NCBI RefSeq assembly: GCF_027579695.1
Contig: NC_083577.1
Location: 59,244,241 to 59,308,240 of the forward strand
Source: Neoarius graeffei
Lineage: Eukaryota > Chordata > Actinopteri > Siluriformes > Ariidae
DNA: 64,000 nucleotides
Reading direction: 5' to 3'
Part shown: positions 8,912 to 61,166 of the stretch, one piece after another
Position numbering within the stretch: position 1 is the stretch's first letter
Layout of the letters: each line of letters starts with the position of its first letter
Program-made: the position numbers and the translations under genes
Notes under the pieces: generated by a model
What the model was told of the DNA's origin: nothing
Database searches by the model: none
Seen by the model: only the letters and a program-made list of their open reading frames with translations

Positions 8912-9934
8912 AGACCCCTTTCACATGACGTCACCGCGCCGCGAGATTTTGTTAGGCGCCATATTGGAAGACCAAGTACATGCACTCACAATATAAAACA
9001 AAGTACGAGCGAGAGTAAAGTGACACGATGGATGATAATTCGGGTTATGTGAGTACATTACCAGCTGCAGAAAGGGCACGGTATGTGGAGAAACTGGCTG
9101 TGATTGATGGGTTTGACCCATATGATAAGACTCGCGGCAAGGGAGAATGGAAACATAAGGAGGACCGGACACCAATTCTGCCATCTGTTTGCTACCCAGA
9201 CATTGTAAACTATTTGTTGTTTACACCCAGTGCCTACACTCAGTGTTCGAACTATGCCGATATTTTCGGGGGGTCCCTTTTTCCCTTGGGGGGTGCTTGC
9301 GCTTGTCTCGGAGCGCGGATCTCCAAACACATGAGAAGCCTATTTTACGCACATATCGCGCGGACTCCACACCTCCACACACGCATCACGTCTGAAGTCA
9401 TAACTCATCAGGGGAAATCGTGTCCACATTGGCATGTTCAAAAAACAACCTCGCGTCAACAATGATACCACACGCAAGAAAAAAAACAAACAGTCAGGCT
9501 ACTCAACAACCAACCTGGCAGCAGCGAGCAAGCCCCAAACCATCCTAAATTATTATTATTATTAAATTGTAGAAGTCTGGGAGGCTTGCTCCTCATACAG
9601 TTATCAACTTGGGGCCAATTTAGCATGTTTTAAATCTGAATTTCTTGCGTTTGCTTACCTCAAAGTGTCCGCAGATCATGCACAGACTTATCCATTATAT
9701 CCACAGTTTTTTGCCAAGTCTCACACAGGTTTCTTTCAAGTCTACTGTTGGGCCAATAAATCATAAATAAAACAGCTCAGATTTATTTGTTTAAGTCGTT
9801 TGCCACTCCACTTTATTCTCGTGGGTTCACATACCGCTGCTGTTATTTCCCCCTAATCACGAGTTTGTTGGTCTTCCAAAATGGCGCAGGGTCTGTTTAC
9901 TTCCGGTTACGGGTGACGTCAGTGAAAGGGGTCT
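8912..9934. mobile_element. ISL2EU-like DNA transposon, copy 1 (internally deleted)
   Basis: Ends AGACCCCTTTCAC and GTGAAAGGGGTCT, flanked by AT on both sides (a 2-bp duplication, as known for ISL2EU). TGACGTCAC lies just inside the left end and GTGACGTCA inside the right end, each followed inward by a YY1-like motif (GCGCCATATTGG, CCAAAATGGCGC). It encodes a YqaJ/SWIM-type first exon from the left. No THAP exon is seen at the right, so the transposase side is deleted. It is nested in the hAT element. Confidence 0.72.
9028..9465 (+). pseudogene. N-terminal exon of ISL2EU YqaJ/SWIM-type protein, truncated
   Basis: Opens MDDNSGYVSTLPAAERARY and contains ARYVEKLAVIDGFDPY and CYPDIVNYLLFTPSAYT. 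This is the conserved start of fish proteins that go on to a SWIM zinc finger and a YqaJ-like viral-recombinase/exonuclease domain, which ISL2EU transposons carry as their second protein. The homology stops near 9240, in the SAYTQ region, and the rest of the frame looks like unrelated sequence. The catalytic domain is absent. Family assignment is by recall of conserved residues. Confidence 0.6.
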
Positions 9935-44084: not shown

Positions 44085-44730
44085 GAGTAGCAGAAAAGTT
44101 TCTTATTGGATATTCGCATCAGCTCTGATGTGTGACGTCATGTTGTTTTGACAATCTGCAATATCGTAAACCATATTCAACGCTCACTGGGTAGACTGGC
44201 GTAATACACGTAGGATAAGTGGTATGCTAACAATATTGCATGCTATCAAACCAAATGAATGGAACCCACTCGAAGGGAATAGAATACATATTTTTATTCC
44301 ATCGGAAAAGTGCTCTGTATGTATAATAATTCCCGATATTTCACTCCGATGATGTCACTCCCAGTGTTTTCCCGCTGACTACATACGCGTTGTCAAAATG
44401 GCAAACCAGTTCAAAATTAAAATTTTTTTGATTAACTTGCATTTTTTTTGTTTGTTTGTTTGTTTTTTGTGGATGTGTCCATATAATATAAAGAACATTA
44501 CATGATGGCACGAAGATATGAAGTTTATCTTCTTGTATTGAAAATATTTTCAGTTGTTCACTCACTTGTGAATATATTCACCACTTGAAGAGAAACTTCA
44601 TATCTTTGTGTGACCGTGTAATGTCCTCTATGTATGCTGGGGTTAAATTTGTGTATACAGCATGATAAATCATGATTATGATAAACCTGTTCACATCCCT
44701 GTTAAGTATTCTCAATGTATAAGTATATGA

Positions 44731-49639: not shown

Positions 49640-50564
49640 ATCCAATATTACATATCTGTGAGTGGCAAAAGTATGTGAACCTTTGCTTTCAGTATCTGGT
49701 GTGACCCCCTTGTGCAGCAATAACTGCAACTAAACGTTTCTGATAACTGTTGATCAGTCCTGCACACTGGCTTGGAGAAATTTTAGCCCATTCCTCTGTA
49801 CAGAACAGCTTCAACTCTGGGATGTTGGTGGGTTTCCTCACATGAACTGCTCGCTTCAGGTCCTTCCACAACATTTCGATTGGATTAAGGTCAGGACTTT
49901 GACTTGGCCATTCCAAAACATTAACTTTATTCTTCTTTAACCATTCTTTGGTAGAACGACTTGTGTGTTTAGGGTCGTTGTCTTGCTGCATGACCCACCT
50001 TCTCTTGAGATTCAGCTCATGGACAGATGTCCTGACATTTTCCTTTAGAATTTGCTGGTATAATTCACAATTCATTGTTCCATCAATGATGGCAAGCCGT
50101 CCTGGCCCAGATGCAGCAAAACAGGCCCAAACCATGATACTACCACCACCATGTTTCACAGATAGGAAAAGGTTCTTATGCTGGAATGCAGTGTTTTCCT
50201 TTTTCCAGACATAACGCTTCTCATTTAAACCAAAAAGTTCTATTTTGGTCTCATCCATACACAAAACATTTTTTCAATAGCCTTCTGGCTTGTCCACGTG
50301 ATCTTTAGTAAACTGCAGATGAGCAGCAATGTTCTTTTTGGAGAGCAGTGGCTTTCTCCTTGCAACCCTGCCATGCATACCATTGTTGTTCAGTGTTCTC
50401 CTGATGGTGGACTCATGAACATTAACATTAGCCAATGTGAGAGAGGCCTCCCGTTGCTTAGAAGTTACCCTGGGGTCCTTTGTGACCTCGCTGACTATTG
50501 AGGTATTTCACCTGACGTCACAGGGTCACGTGACGCCCCGGTGTCCACCATTTTGGACGGCAAG

Positions 50565-51125
50565 CTAGCTAATGTCAACAACAGTAGCTAGTATGTTACT
50601 GTAGCAATATTTACGTTCAGTCATTTGGATGACTGTTAAAACCTTTCAGTCTCAAGTTTTTCCTTTACTGGATTTACTAGTTTACTGAGCTAGCGCGCGA
50701 TGGCTCCCGGCTCGGCCGGCTAGCGCGCGATGGCTCCCGGCTCGGCCGGCTAGCGCGCGATGGCTCCCGGCGCGGCCGGCTAGCGCGCGATGGCTCCCGG
50801 CTCGGCCGCCGAGCACGCGATGGCTCCCGGCTCGGCCGCCGAGCGCGCGATGGCTCCCGGCTCGGCCGCCGAGCGCGCGATGGCTCCCGGCTCGGCCGGA
50901 GAGCGCGCGATGGCTCCCGGCTCGGCCGGAGAGCGCGCGATGGCTCCCGGCTCGGCCGGAGAGCGCGCGATGGCTCCCGGCTTGGCCGAGTGCGCTAGCT
51001 CAGTAAACTAGTAAATCCAGTAAAGGAAAAACTTGAGACTGAAAGGTTTTAACAGTCATCCAAATGACTGAACGTAAATATTGCTACAGTAACATACTAG
51101 CTACGATGTTGTTGACATTAGCTAG
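50565..51125. repeat. Foldback with about 133-bp arms around a minisatellite
   Basis: GCTAGCTAATGTCAACAACA... to ...TTTACTGAGCTAGCGC (50565-50697) pairs almost perfectly with 50990-51125. The loop is a 30-bp tandem array. Lies inside the ISL2EU-like copy 2. No flanking duplication was resolved. Confidence 0.85.
50690..51000. repeat. GC-rich 30-bp minisatellite, ten units
   Basis: Each unit contains TGGCTCCCGGCTCGGCCG. Units fall into blocks by their 3' part: three GGCTAGCG, three GCCGAGCG, three GGAGAGCG, and one variant end unit. It translates to MAPGSAAERA-type repeats only because 30 is divisible by 3. Confidence 0.92.
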
Positions 51126-51288
51126 TGCTAACAGCTAGTTGCTAATACACTGCTACAACTACACCAACCCTAATAATACAGTTCTTGGTCATTGCCTGGT
51201 AACAGCAAATTTATAACGGGTCATGTCTCAACAGACTAAGAAGTTATTTCAATGACATTTAATAACATTTTGTTTATCCTGAGGACCG

Positions 51289-51658
51289 AAAGTAAATGAA
51301 AATGTGAACAAACCTTAGCTGTAATAAGATGGCGACCACCAGCTCCAGGGACGACCCGCTGATGTAGGCATGTTACCCAGCCTGACACAAAATATTTGTA
51401 GGCATCCAAACTCGTATACGCTTTCAGATCAATACCTGTGTATGGCGATGGGTTTTTAACGACATAGGTATACAGATCATGTGGGCCGAAGTCAGGTAAA
51501 GACGAGGGCTTCGTGTACTTCCGTACGTCAGTGAACAATCCTGGTGGAAGCAGGTAAACGTCGTTCTCTAAGCCTGCTAACCTCAATTTTTGCAAATACC
51601 TCTCCCTCTGCTCGCCCTGTAAATGCCCTACGTCGCTGGATAGTGAAGGTGTTTTCTG
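51289..51658 (-). pseudogene. N-terminal exon of ISL2EU YqaJ/SWIM-type protein
   Basis: Likely start MQKTPSLSSDVGHLQGEQRE at 51658, although the frame is open up to the terminus at 51781. Conserved words: RERYLQKLRLAGL, LPDFGPHDLYTYVV, YTGIDLKAYTSLDAYKYFVS and GWVTCLHQRV, ending LITAK at an AAG/GTTTGT splice donor near 51317. This is the best-preserved of three such exons in the window and shows the conserved start of the SWIM/YqaJ protein family. Downstream exons with the SWIM finger and nuclease are absent, deleted with the element's interior. Confidence 0.65.
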
Positions 51659-52442
51659 CATCTCGCTCCTTTTTCTTTTATGTTTTTCGTTTGTCGCCTT
51701 CCTCGCATTCAAACTGATTCGAGCCGTGCCGTCCAAAATGGCAGCATCACATGACTTGGTCACGTGAGTGAAATACCTCAATTACACGCCTTGCTCTTGG
51801 AGTGATCTTTGTGAGTCGACCACTCCTGGGGAGGGTAACAATGGTCTGGAATTTCCTCCATTTGTACACAATCTGACTGACTGTGGATTGGTGGAGTCCA
51901 AACTCTTTAGAGATGGTTTTGTAACCTTTTCCAGCCTGATGAGCATCAACAATGCTTTTTCTGAGGTCCTCAGAAATCTCCTTTGTTCGTGCCATGATAC
52001 ACTTCCACAAACATGTGTTGTGAAGATCAGACTTTGATAGATCCCTGTTCTTTAAATAAAACAGGGTGCCCACTCACACCTGATTGTCATTCCATTGATT
52101 GAAAACACCTGACTCTAATTTCATCTTCAAATTAACTGCTAATCCTAGAGGTTCACATACTTTTGCTACTCACAGATATGTAATATTGGATCATTTTCCT
52201 CAATAAATAAATGACCAAGTATAATATTTTTGTCTCATTTGTTTAACTGGGTTCTCTTTATCTACTTTTAGGATTTGTGTGAAAATCTGATGATGTTTTA
52301 GGTCATATTTATGCAGAAATATAGACAATTCTAAAGGTTTCACAAACTTTCAAGCACCACTGTATATTATCAATACATTTACAGTAACACTTCTTGCACC
52401 GTGTTTGTTCTGCAGCTGTAATGTCAGTTTTATAGTTTAGAT

Positions 52443-58139: not shown

Positions 58140-59606
58140 GTTTCAAAACTGTGTAACTCAAATATTTTATAAACTTTTTGCTCTTCAAATTTTTTGGACT
58201 TCAAATTCCTCTGTCCCAACTATTTTTTAAGTGATATCTGCAAAATACAAGCAAGTTGGCAAACCAAAAATATTAGGAGTCATTTTATTATATGTTTGTC
58301 AGTTTAATAAAGGTTCACGAATATTTACAAATTGCACATTTTTGTTTTTATTGCATTTTAGGAAATATCCCAACCTTTCTGGATATGAGGTTTGTAAATT
58401 TGCTAATTATTTTCAAAACTCAGTTTGTCTGGCAAGTTATTAAAGGTTAATAATAATGACAGAGTTAATTTTCTTATTTTTTCTAATAGCTTAATTTAAA
58501 TGAAATAGAACTTAGAATGAACTAGAAGTGTTTGTTTGAATTCATATTTAGTTGTACATGATATTAGGTTCAAAAAAGCATTACATATGTAGTAGCTTCC
58601 AGCAGACTTTATACAAAGAAGTGTGTGAGTAATTACCTTGCCCGGGAGGGAGTCCACAGGGGACGTGGTATTGTTTTCAGTGTGGTTTGTTTGTTTTTTT
58701 TGTTAGCAACATTACGGGGAAACAGCAGGACCAAATATTCATGAAATTTTCAGGATAGATGGGCATTTGTCTCAAATAGAACTTCCAACATTTTGAGGGT
58801 CATCCGGTCAAGGTCAACAAAAAGGTCAAAATTGGGGAGGGTTTTTTGTGATATCTTCCTTCATATTCATCATATTTACTTCAAACCAATTCCAAAATGT
58901 TCATCTTTCAATTCTGCTTACACTGATGTGCTACATGATGGGGTATCTCTCATAGTTTTCTTAGCGGTTGGGGGTCAAATGTCAGGGGGGTCAAGGTCAT
59001 CGCTAAAATTTGCATATTTTCCATTATAACTTGAAAACTGTTAGAGATAGAGAGATGTTTATCATTATCAACATATAGGAAGTCATATATGGGCTTTCAT
59101 TTGGCAGCATGACCTTTGACCTTGTTTGTTTGTGTGTGTCTGTTAAAAATCTAGCGTCTAGACGGTTGCACTGATTGACTTCAAATTTTCAGGATAGGTG
59201 GGCAATGGTCCGTAGATTACCTGATTAAATTTTGGGGGTAATGGGATCAAGGTGAAGGTCAAGGTCACCAGAAAGGTCAACCTTTCGGTCAAAATAACAT
59301 TTTCCATTATAACTCAAAAACGGTTGCCGATAGACAAATGTTTACTATTATGAGCATATAGGAACTCCTATATCGTCTTTTATTTGGCACTATGACCTTT
59401 GACTTTAAGTGATCTTGAAAGGTCAAACTCAAGGTCACGGGTTTTCAGAGGGCTATAGATAGTTTTCACTGACGTCACGGCATTCTGGGGAATGCCCTCC
59501 AGCCGCCATCTTGTGGGGCAAACAAAACGGACCATCGCCATTACCGGCTACGTTATCTCAGACGAATTTATGAAGTTATATAGTCAGTTTTCTAAAATAA
59601 AGATCA

Positions 59607-59792
59607 ATGTCGGCAAAATCAAGCAAACAGAAGTATATAGATAAATTAGACGACATCTCACGACAACGGTATGCAGCCAAACTGGCCTTGATTGAGGGAA
59701 TTGACCCCTACGAAGTGGACAAAGATGCATTTTCAAGTGACTATGCAGGGCTGCCAAAACCTGAAACTGCCAAAGCCTGCTCCAAAGCCTGA
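59607..59792 (+). pseudogene. N-terminal exon of ISL2EU YqaJ/SWIM-type protein, truncated
   Basis: MSAKSSKQKYIDKLDDISRQ, then RYAAKLALIEGIDPYEVDKD, parallel to RYVEKLAVIDGFDPYDK in copy 1. The frame then runs into a short internal repeat (KPETAKACSKA, with CCAAAGCCTGAAACTG duplicated at about 59755 and 59780) and stops. Interior exons deleted. Confidence 0.62.
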
Positions 59793-59847
59793 AACTGACT
59801 TCATCAAACTTTAAAGGCTGTCTGATATATACAACTTTATATATTCA

Positions 59848-60284
59848 CAGCGCGCCTTTTGTCGGATGCCGCCTTTTTCACGGCTGAATCGTGCAGATCC
59901 GATTTTTTTTGGGGGGGGCGTTGGAGTGTCTGATTATAATTTCAAAGTAAATTCTGTATTAAAATTACTAAATAAGCAAATCCGTTACAGTCCATGAAAC
60001 AGGAAGTATAAGGATGAGAAAAAAACAGTTTAAATCGGAAAGCTGCGCACATTTGTGCAGTCCTGCACACCGCTCAGGCTGCGCAAATGTGCGCAGCTTT
60101 CTGATTTAAACTGTTTTTTTCTCATCCTTATACTTCCTGTTTCATGGACTGTAATGGATTTGCTTATTTAGTAATTTTAATACAGAATTTACTTTGAAAT
60201 TATAATCAGACACTCCAACGCCCCCCCCAAAAAAAAAAAATCGGATCTGCGCGATTCAGGCGGCATCCGCCAAAAGGCGCGCTG
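59848..60284. repeat. Foldback element, about 200-bp arms
   Basis: CAGCGCGCCTTTTGTCGGAT... pairs with ...CAAAAGGCGCGCTG. The arms are almost identical over their full length and meet at a short loop (TCCTGCACACCGCTCAGG, about 60060-60078). Little divergence between arms implies recent formation or gene conversion. It contains G- and C-runs (59930-59938 and 60222-60228) in the arms. Confidence 0.9.
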
Positions 60285-60532
60285 TTTGCATCCCAAACAC
60301 AAATCAAATCATACAGAATAGACCTAAAATGTTTTTCAAAAATGACCCTTGTGTGAGTGAAGTGACAAGTTTCAAATAGAAACATGACAAACGAGCGATA
60401 TTAAGTGTACATTACAATGTAAACTTACACTCAGCGGTTCCAGTTAGGACATTCTCCAGAGATTGTTCACATGATGTTTTGGTTTCCAAAAACAAACTTA
60501 AACACAATTGATTGTTTATTTAAACAACTTAC

Positions 60533-60746
60533 CACTTATAAAATGATCGGAGCAGACTTTGCTGTGTTTGGAAGGCTGATAATCCTTGCGGTTGATTCTC
60601 GCAAGCCATAGATTTCTCCTTTGTATGCTGAGTTTCTTTGTTTGCTCGCCTTCGTGCTCCCGTACAGTGGGAATTCCATAAAAGCTCCGCTTGACTTCAT
60701 CATTTGACCTATTACGACAGCCGTGAATACAACAGATGTGCACCAT
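60533..60746 (-). CDS. THAP-domain exon of ISL2EU-like copy 3
   Basis: ATG at 60746 opens MVHICCIHGCRNRSND, with the C-x4-C of the THAP zinc site, then FYGIP, RRNLWLARINRKD (the conserved Trp), and SKVCSDHFISG with the C-x2-H. This is an essentially complete THAP C2-CH finger with all four ligands. It ends at an AGTG/GTAAGT donor. In ISL2EU elements a THAP finger precedes the DDE transposase, which is missing here. The exon is intact and could still be spliced to something else. Confidence 0.75.
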
Positions 60747-61166
60747 TGCTAGCTTTAAATAGCCTGCTTGGGTTCTTTTGAAGACTTTGTACTCGCGCGT
60801 TACAATGTGTGCTTAGTCACCCGTACGGTAAGCTTGACCTGCAAGATGGCCGCCACTAGGGAATCTCCGACTCTGTGACGTCATATGAAAACTATCTATA
60901 AATTGGAAACGGTTGATGGTAGACATATGTTTACCATTATCAACTTATAGGAAGTGCCATATGGGCTTTCATTTGGCACTATGACCTTTGACCTTGAATA
61001 ACTTTGAAATGTCAAATTCAAGGTCATGGATTTTCATAGGACTATAACTTGACAGCTGATGATTGAGAAATATTACCATTATCAACATATAGGTATAAAA
61101 TAAGTGCTGCCAGGCCAGGTTTGTTTTGCCTGGCAACACTTGTCTAAAATGTAAATGGTTAAAGTG

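Follow-up and report, generated by a model that had tools for sequence, protein, structure and literature searches.

The ISL2EU transposons are a group of the PHIS (PIF/Harbinger-like) superfamily and are known from teleosts; the mean length reported for them is 4840 bp (PMC4482050, PMC9179366). They generate an AT target-site duplication, carry a THAP/HTH/DDE transposase gene together with a gene for a YqaJ protein, and their terminal inverted repeats (TIR) are described as usually beginning with GG. The YqaJ partner is thus already in print, and its role is stated as an open question in PMC4482050, in line with the first-pass annotation of the locus studied here, which called this partner poorly understood. 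In the gonads of medaka, expression of ISL2EU is testis-biased according to PMC9179366. A second system of interest is ProtoRAG, the RAG transposon of lancelets, in which both TIRs drive transcription and contain the site GCCATCTTG (PMC7481187). YY1 binds to this site, which has a part in transcriptional regulation and makes precise cleavage more likely. The ProtoRAG transposase is unrelated to that of ISL2EU and the accessory gene is a different one, so any likeness between the two would be convergent.

The present study concerns a 64,000-nucleotide stretch of the Neoarius graeffei genome (C9:59244241-59308240; 2.34 Gb were searched), hereafter the window. The interval 59457-60897 is a complete, non-autonomous element of the ISL2EU type, a kind already known, and represents a family that we call F1. 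Perfect 12-bp TIRs, an AT duplication and gene-end exons at both termini confirm the assignment made at first reading, and the limits are exact, with AT dinucleotides bordering AGATAGTTTTCA...TGAAAACTATCT (Table 1). F1 and its larger relatives share with the described ISL2EU elements the AT duplication and the pair of transposase and YqaJ genes, but F1 is internally deleted, and the copy in the window keeps THAP exon 1 and a fragment of YqaJ exon 1 alone. The TIRs of F1 and of a second family in the window, F2, begin with AG and those of a third, F3, with TG, whereas the THAP end of F4, a family found elsewhere in the genome, begins with GG; the AG start of F1 counts against the assignment, although the source's "usually" leaves starts with AG or TG compatible with membership of ISL2EU.

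Table 1. Features of the three ISL2EU elements (window coordinates; position 1 is the first base of the 64,000-nucleotide stretch).
Feature	Coordinates	Strand	Evidence or remarks
Non-autonomous ISL2EU element F1, 1441 bp	59457..60897		40 scored genome matches, ends, AT duplication
AT target-site duplication, left	59455..59456		sequence; AT on both sides in 32/34 two-ended copies
AT target-site duplication, right	60898..60899		sequence; single AT in paralogous empty site 60946-61093
TIR AGATAGTTTTCA	59457..59468	+	perfect 12-bp TIR, F1
TIR, other end of F1	60886..60897	-	perfect 12-bp TIR
TGACGTCA (CRE-type palindrome), F1	59470..59477		left end, position 14
TGACGTCA, F1	60876..60883		right end, position 15 from that end
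CCATCTTG (YY1-type core) inside GCCATCTTG	59506..59513	+	F1 left end
CCATCTTG (YY1-type core)	60842..60849	-	F1 right end
Truncated first exon of YqaJ gene, F1	59607..59792	+	50 native codons plus 11 others to a stop; donor absent
Captured palindromic foldback repeat	59847..60285		in place of 48 bp of intron in larger relatives
THAP exon 1, F1	60533..60746	-	71 complete codons, then donor GTAAGT; Pfam THAP E 1.7e-10
ISL2EU family F2, 1023 bp, TIR AGACCCCTTTCA	8912..9934		AT duplication; related larger element L114/L115
YqaJ-type first exon of F2	9028..9243	+	match to first exons of YqaJ genes
TGACGTCA, YqaJ end of F2	8926..8933		YY1-type core at 8959-8966
TGACGTCA, other end of F2	9914..9921		YY1-type core at 9877-9884, minus
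ISL2EU family F3, 1282 bp, TIR TGAGGTATTTCAC	50499..51780		AT duplication; THAP-side relative L118
YqaJ-type first exon of F3	51311..51661	-	limits approximate, hand-counted
TGACGTCA in F3	50513..50520		YY1-type cores 50548-50555, plus, and 51734-51741, minus

Forty copies of F1, among 3555 first-look candidates, were scored and aligned, namely the window copy and 39 fetched ones; all cover 85-100% of the element. The 39 others are 91-97% identical to the window element, and the 40 diverge from the family consensus by 1.4-4.5%. Both ends are present in 34 of them, flanked by AT on both sides in 32 of these 34. When the flanks of 33 copies were joined and compared with the sequences collected here, an uninterrupted repeat was matched in nine cases, seven of them gapless at the junction, where the site reads AT in five, including the window copy with its counterpart given in Table 1, and AC in two. 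The bases outside the AT are a mixture of T and A rather than strictly A|AT|T, the target sequence of ISL2EU (T..A 15, A..A 7, T..T 6, A..T 4; n=33, one further copy having AC on the right). These end counts, like those of motif exactness within F1 given below, used patterns that demand AT at the left end. A genome-wide count of F1 through its exact 33-base left junction (212 + 195 occurrences) was dropped: four of five sampled sites with this junction are F1, but L094 lies in another context, and the junction therefore provides no clean count of copies.

Larger relatives that share both ends of F1 were recovered at three loci (L078, L079 and L080). They span 4.9, 5.3 and 6.5 kb, of which the first two are to be compared with the mean length reported for ISL2EU, and the longest holds an insert that is Tc1-like by eye. 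These larger elements with F1 ends carry both genes predicted by the first-pass annotation, which supports its reading. The YqaJ gene comprises, in this order, exon 1, a SWIM-like CxC-x6-CxH stretch, the YqaJ domain (Pfam E 1.3e-21 in L080) and a C-terminal PHD-like finger. The gene at the opposite end has matches to THAP (E 5.2e-9, L079), HTH_Tnp_4 (E 6.7e-20, L078) and DDE_Tnp_4 (E 8.3e-39, also L078); the DDE region of L079 is spread over two frames. At 86% identity or more, seven of 13 DDE matches in the genome, among the matches listed, are free of stops. Aligned with these relatives, positions 1-300 of the F1 consensus correspond to the YqaJ end and positions 301-323 are filler at one deletion junction, repeating the nearby GCCTGAAACTG. 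There follow 67 bp that are located between the first two exons of the THAP gene in the relatives, then a palindrome that replaces 48 bp of theirs, and finally 602 bp that make up the terminus on the THAP side.

The palindrome was considered as a native part of ISL2EU and rejected, being missing from the larger relatives and occurring in three other contexts at six of 20 sampled genome sites (L091-L110), the other 14 sites being F1-like. Exact matches to its arm number 775 + 755 in the genome. It is a foldback repeat with long arms and outer ends GGGATGCAAACAGCGCGCC, one end having 473 + 470 exact genome matches.

F1 very probably arose by deletion from an ISL2EU cut-and-paste transposon with two genes and became a non-autonomous family of many copies. 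It keeps both ends of the larger relatives and has lost nearly all of the YqaJ and THAP-HTH-DDE genes that run inward from them. The transposase encoded by larger copies, perhaps together with the YqaJ protein, would bind these ends and move F1 in trans. The two exons would persist because each end of F1 is at the same time the start of a gene, and not because their products are needed. The TGACGTCA or CACGTGAC motif beside the TIR and the YY1-type site some 40-50 bp into the element are most likely host-factor sites that would drive both genes.

These terminal motifs recur in the two other ISL2EU elements of the window. The intervals 8912-9934 and 50499-51780 had been annotated at first reading as two further copies retaining the YqaJ-type exon; each does keep such a first exon (E 2e-11 for F2 and 4e-13 for F3 against YqaJ-type first exons), but they belong to families of their own, the sole DNA match of F1 to either being 48 bp at 77% to F2. 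In F2, a possible remnant of THAP was suspected by eye in a translation of the end at 9934. F3 contains an internal palindrome (50584-51104) with perfect 113-bp arms around what appears by eye to be a tandem array of ~30-bp units. Within the window TGACGTCA occurs six times against 0.62 expected, and five of the six lie at ends of F1, F2 and F3; near the sixth, at 44133, no element end is visible by eye, and it was taken as a chance occurrence. An inward CCATnTTG is found at all six ends of the three elements (21 in the window as a whole, both strands), and at both ends of F1 it is part of the nine bases GCCATCTTG, the YY1 site that ProtoRAG likewise has in both ends (PMC7481187), with a function demonstrated in ProtoRAG and presumed in F1.

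Beyond the window, twelve family ends were sampled with one count each, i.e. the YqaJ ends of F1-F6 and the THAP ends of F1-F4, F7 and F8 (F4: L081-L086 and L111; F5: L064/L065/L112; F6: L087; F7: L113; F8: L117). TGACGTCA or CACGTGAC (CRE/E-box motifs) is present in 10 of the 12, and so is CCATnTTG. TGACGTCA was found at all six THAP ends and at two of the six YqaJ ends; CACGTGAC stands at two further YqaJ ends (F3 and F4), and those of F5 and F6 have neither. CCATnTTG occurs in five of six ends on either side, missing from the THAP end of F7 and from the YqaJ end of F6, which accordingly lacks both classes of motif. Repeat copies were left out (five of the six F4 copies, L088 of F1, L115 of F2 and L118 of F3), as were the YqaJ end of F2 and the nested F4 in L114 and three stretches in which no end was identified (L089, L090, L116). 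Random stretches of the window contain a CRE/E-box motif in ~0.3% of cases (80 bp each) and a YY1-type core in ~1.5% (130 bp each); the ISL2EU families share ancestry, and their ends are therefore not independent tests. Among THAP ends fetched after the motifs had been discovered (L115, L117, L118), three of three have both, with L117 alone representing a new family. At the YqaJ ends of F1 copies TGACGTCA is exact in 25 of 34 and the YY1-type core in 29 of 34; the figures for the THAP ends are 30 of 39 and 34 of 39. In the F1 copy L088 the CRE position reads TGACATCA. The locus L114 (reverse complement, ~422-1423) has a copy of F4 inserted into the YqaJ end of F2, where it splits the YY1-type site of that end.

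Alternatively, TGACGTCA and CCATnTTG might be what the transposase of the element itself recognizes (through its THAP or HTH domain), an extended TIR that merely resembles CREB/ATF and YY1 sites. We regard this as possible, though the less probable reading. Wherever a TGACGTCA-bearing end has an assigned first base (by eye for F8; F5 and F7, which lack one, do not enter the position counts), the motif begins at element position 14 or 15, in seven of seven cases, as would be expected of a strict distance to the cut site, and because this fixed distance fits a transposase site too, both readings stand. Against a transposase site speak the replacement of TGACGTCA by CACGTGAC at two YqaJ ends and the variable start of the YY1-type core, which is 48-51 at the THAP ends of F1, F2, F3 and F4 and at the YqaJ ends of F1 and F2 but 38-40 at the YqaJ ends of F3 and F4 and in F8. 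The TIR site of ProtoRAG, moreover, binds and acts through YY1 (PMC7481187). Under the host-factor reading some of the end sites may additionally help the transposase to find the ends, as YY1 does in ProtoRAG. The testis-biased expression of ISL2EU in medaka would fit an action of CREM at the CRE-type sites.

The retained exons were compared with those of the larger relatives. The first-pass annotation had placed at opposite ends of the element the first exon of a YqaJ/SWIM-type nuclease gene and an intact THAP exon with a splice donor; both are present, but the YqaJ-side exon is truncated and donorless. The Pfam THAP model (PF05485) matches 60519-60746 on the minus strand, where GTAAGT directly after 60533 is the splice donor. 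The interval 59607-59792, searched alone, has no Pfam match, and neither a SWIM nor a YqaJ domain was found in the retained exons submitted to Pfam; the first 50 codons of the F1 consensus peptide on this side are nevertheless 84-98% identical, at four loci, to first exons upstream of YqaJ domains. Relative to the consensus, changes in the THAP exon over 40 copies number 100 (nonsynonymous), 39 (synonymous) and 4 (stop), against 170.6, 55.5 and 8.3 expected from the substitution spectrum of the whole element; in the YqaJ exon over 39 copies they number 54, 17 and 1 (98.3, 38.3 and 9.8 expected). Since the total number of changes is below expectation in both exons, only the ratio of nonsynonymous to synonymous changes was used, and with ratios near neutral the F1 exons look like passengers.

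This bears on the idea that selection keeps the THAP exon for the sake of a short repressor, or of a fusion of THAP with host sequence. Internally deleted repressor forms exist in other transposons, the reading frame and donor are intact in the window copy, and the exon is free of stops and gaps in 21 of 40 copies. The near-neutral ratio argues against such a product, as does the frameshifted subfamily, in which 16 of 40 copies share a 4-bp deletion (as part of a longer gap in a single copy) and which multiplied anyway; we consider selection on this exon improbable. The last 150 bp of F1 occur in two versions, both of which are also found in larger relatives, and these combine with presence or absence of the deletion in all four ways (9, 7, 5 and 19 copies, the last group including one that stops short of its end), which suggests recombination, exchange of ends or recurrent deletion. 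That the exons are unrelated host exons captured by the element, a doubt raised with the original annotation, has practically no probability left, the same exons opening both genes in larger relatives with the same TIRs.

The pairing of the two genes extends over the genome. Pfam YqaJ matches number 71, at least two of which are pieces of one gene, and a search for DDE matches that started from the F1 DDE protein listed at least 150 places. Among the matches listed, an ISL2EU-type DDE match lies no more than 12 kb from 58 of the 71 (chance expectation 0.0015 per match), and the nearest one is on the other strand, downstream of YqaJ, in 58 of 58. Relatives missing one of the genes had been named as a point against the annotation; the pairing holds in these 58 cases. 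The word "divergent" suits the genes only in that they are situated at opposite ends; both read inward and are convergent.

The YqaJ proteins of ISL2EU share with the YqaJ/lambda-exonuclease family (PF09588) the G..E, D and E-x-K positions, which are invariant in 11 aligned proteins (L112, L080, L111 and others), and differ from it by a SWIM-like CxC...CxH stretch before the domain, a PHD-like finger after it and extra conserved cysteines. The CxC-x6-CxH stretch is present in the proteins of the relatives, yet Pfam did not report a SWIM zinc finger there. Of 30 loci (L048-L077), 23 have a PHD-type Cys/His pattern after YqaJ; many of the 30 belong to one family, and the pattern was scored without a control. 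The finger of L112 matches YNG2 (E 9e-16) and that of L080 matches ING2 (E 7e-7); Pfam PHD models gave no match for L080, L111 and L112, and for L113 a PHD-like model reached 25.4 bits, below its cut-off of 27. In ING2 the cage residues for H3K4me3 are Y/M/W. Residues like these stand in L064/L112 (Y, M and W) and in L057/L113 (W, M and W), but not in F1 (I, R and S). As a separate observation, C-x-C-C between the catalytic D and E-x-K and a cysteine just after E-x-K are invariant in the 11 aligned proteins, the third cysteine being absent from L048, L049 and L052, outside this set; a metal or Fe-S site is possible.

The arrangement of terminal motifs and the PHD-like finger of the YqaJ partner seem to be the new parts, the kind of element and its gene partners being known; in the open-access literature searched, ISL2EU is described neither with CRE/E-box and YY1-type end motifs nor with a YqaJ protein that has a PHD-like finger. 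In jawed vertebrates, RAG2 has a PHD finger. It is conceivable, though on balance doubtful, that ISL2EU independently acquired a control kit resembling that of RAG, in which the ends act both as CREB/ATF (or E-box) plus YY1 promoters and as transposase-loading sites, and an ING-type PHD finger directs the exonuclease partner to active chromatin. If the reading is true, the many deleted copies would distribute promoters ready for use, each followed by a THAP first exon with its splice donor, and THAP-host fusion transcripts become possible. Host-factor-like sites that are nearly fixed at element ends constitute a testable rule, and short ISL2EU families are natural carriers of a first exon with its donor. 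A predicted nuclease joined to a histone-reader-like finger, and convergent with the transposase wherever the pair was found, offers a handle on the role of the YqaJ partner.

Several genomic clusters were observed besides. On C17, copies of YqaJ/DDE lie at 2.2, 2.6, 3.05, 3.65, 4.09 and 4.52 Mb, at a spacing of ~0.4-0.6 Mb, and five of the six keep a YqaJ exon of 532-549 codons. Domestication of the gene was considered and rejected in view of dN/dS values from 0.33 to 1.3 in the nine pairs that gave a value and of shared flanks; L079, L080 and L088 share a flank, and at least these are therefore duplicates of one insertion, apparently copied by segmental duplication. On C11, at least 11 DDE matches (51-53% identity, open frames of 416-425 codons) lie within 2.4 Mb (37.98-40.32 Mb) on a contig with zero YqaJ matches, and may represent an amplified or perhaps domesticated group of genes. 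At 6.4-8.6 Mb on C22 there are at least eight short DDE fragments, with frames of 76 codons and two TGA apiece.
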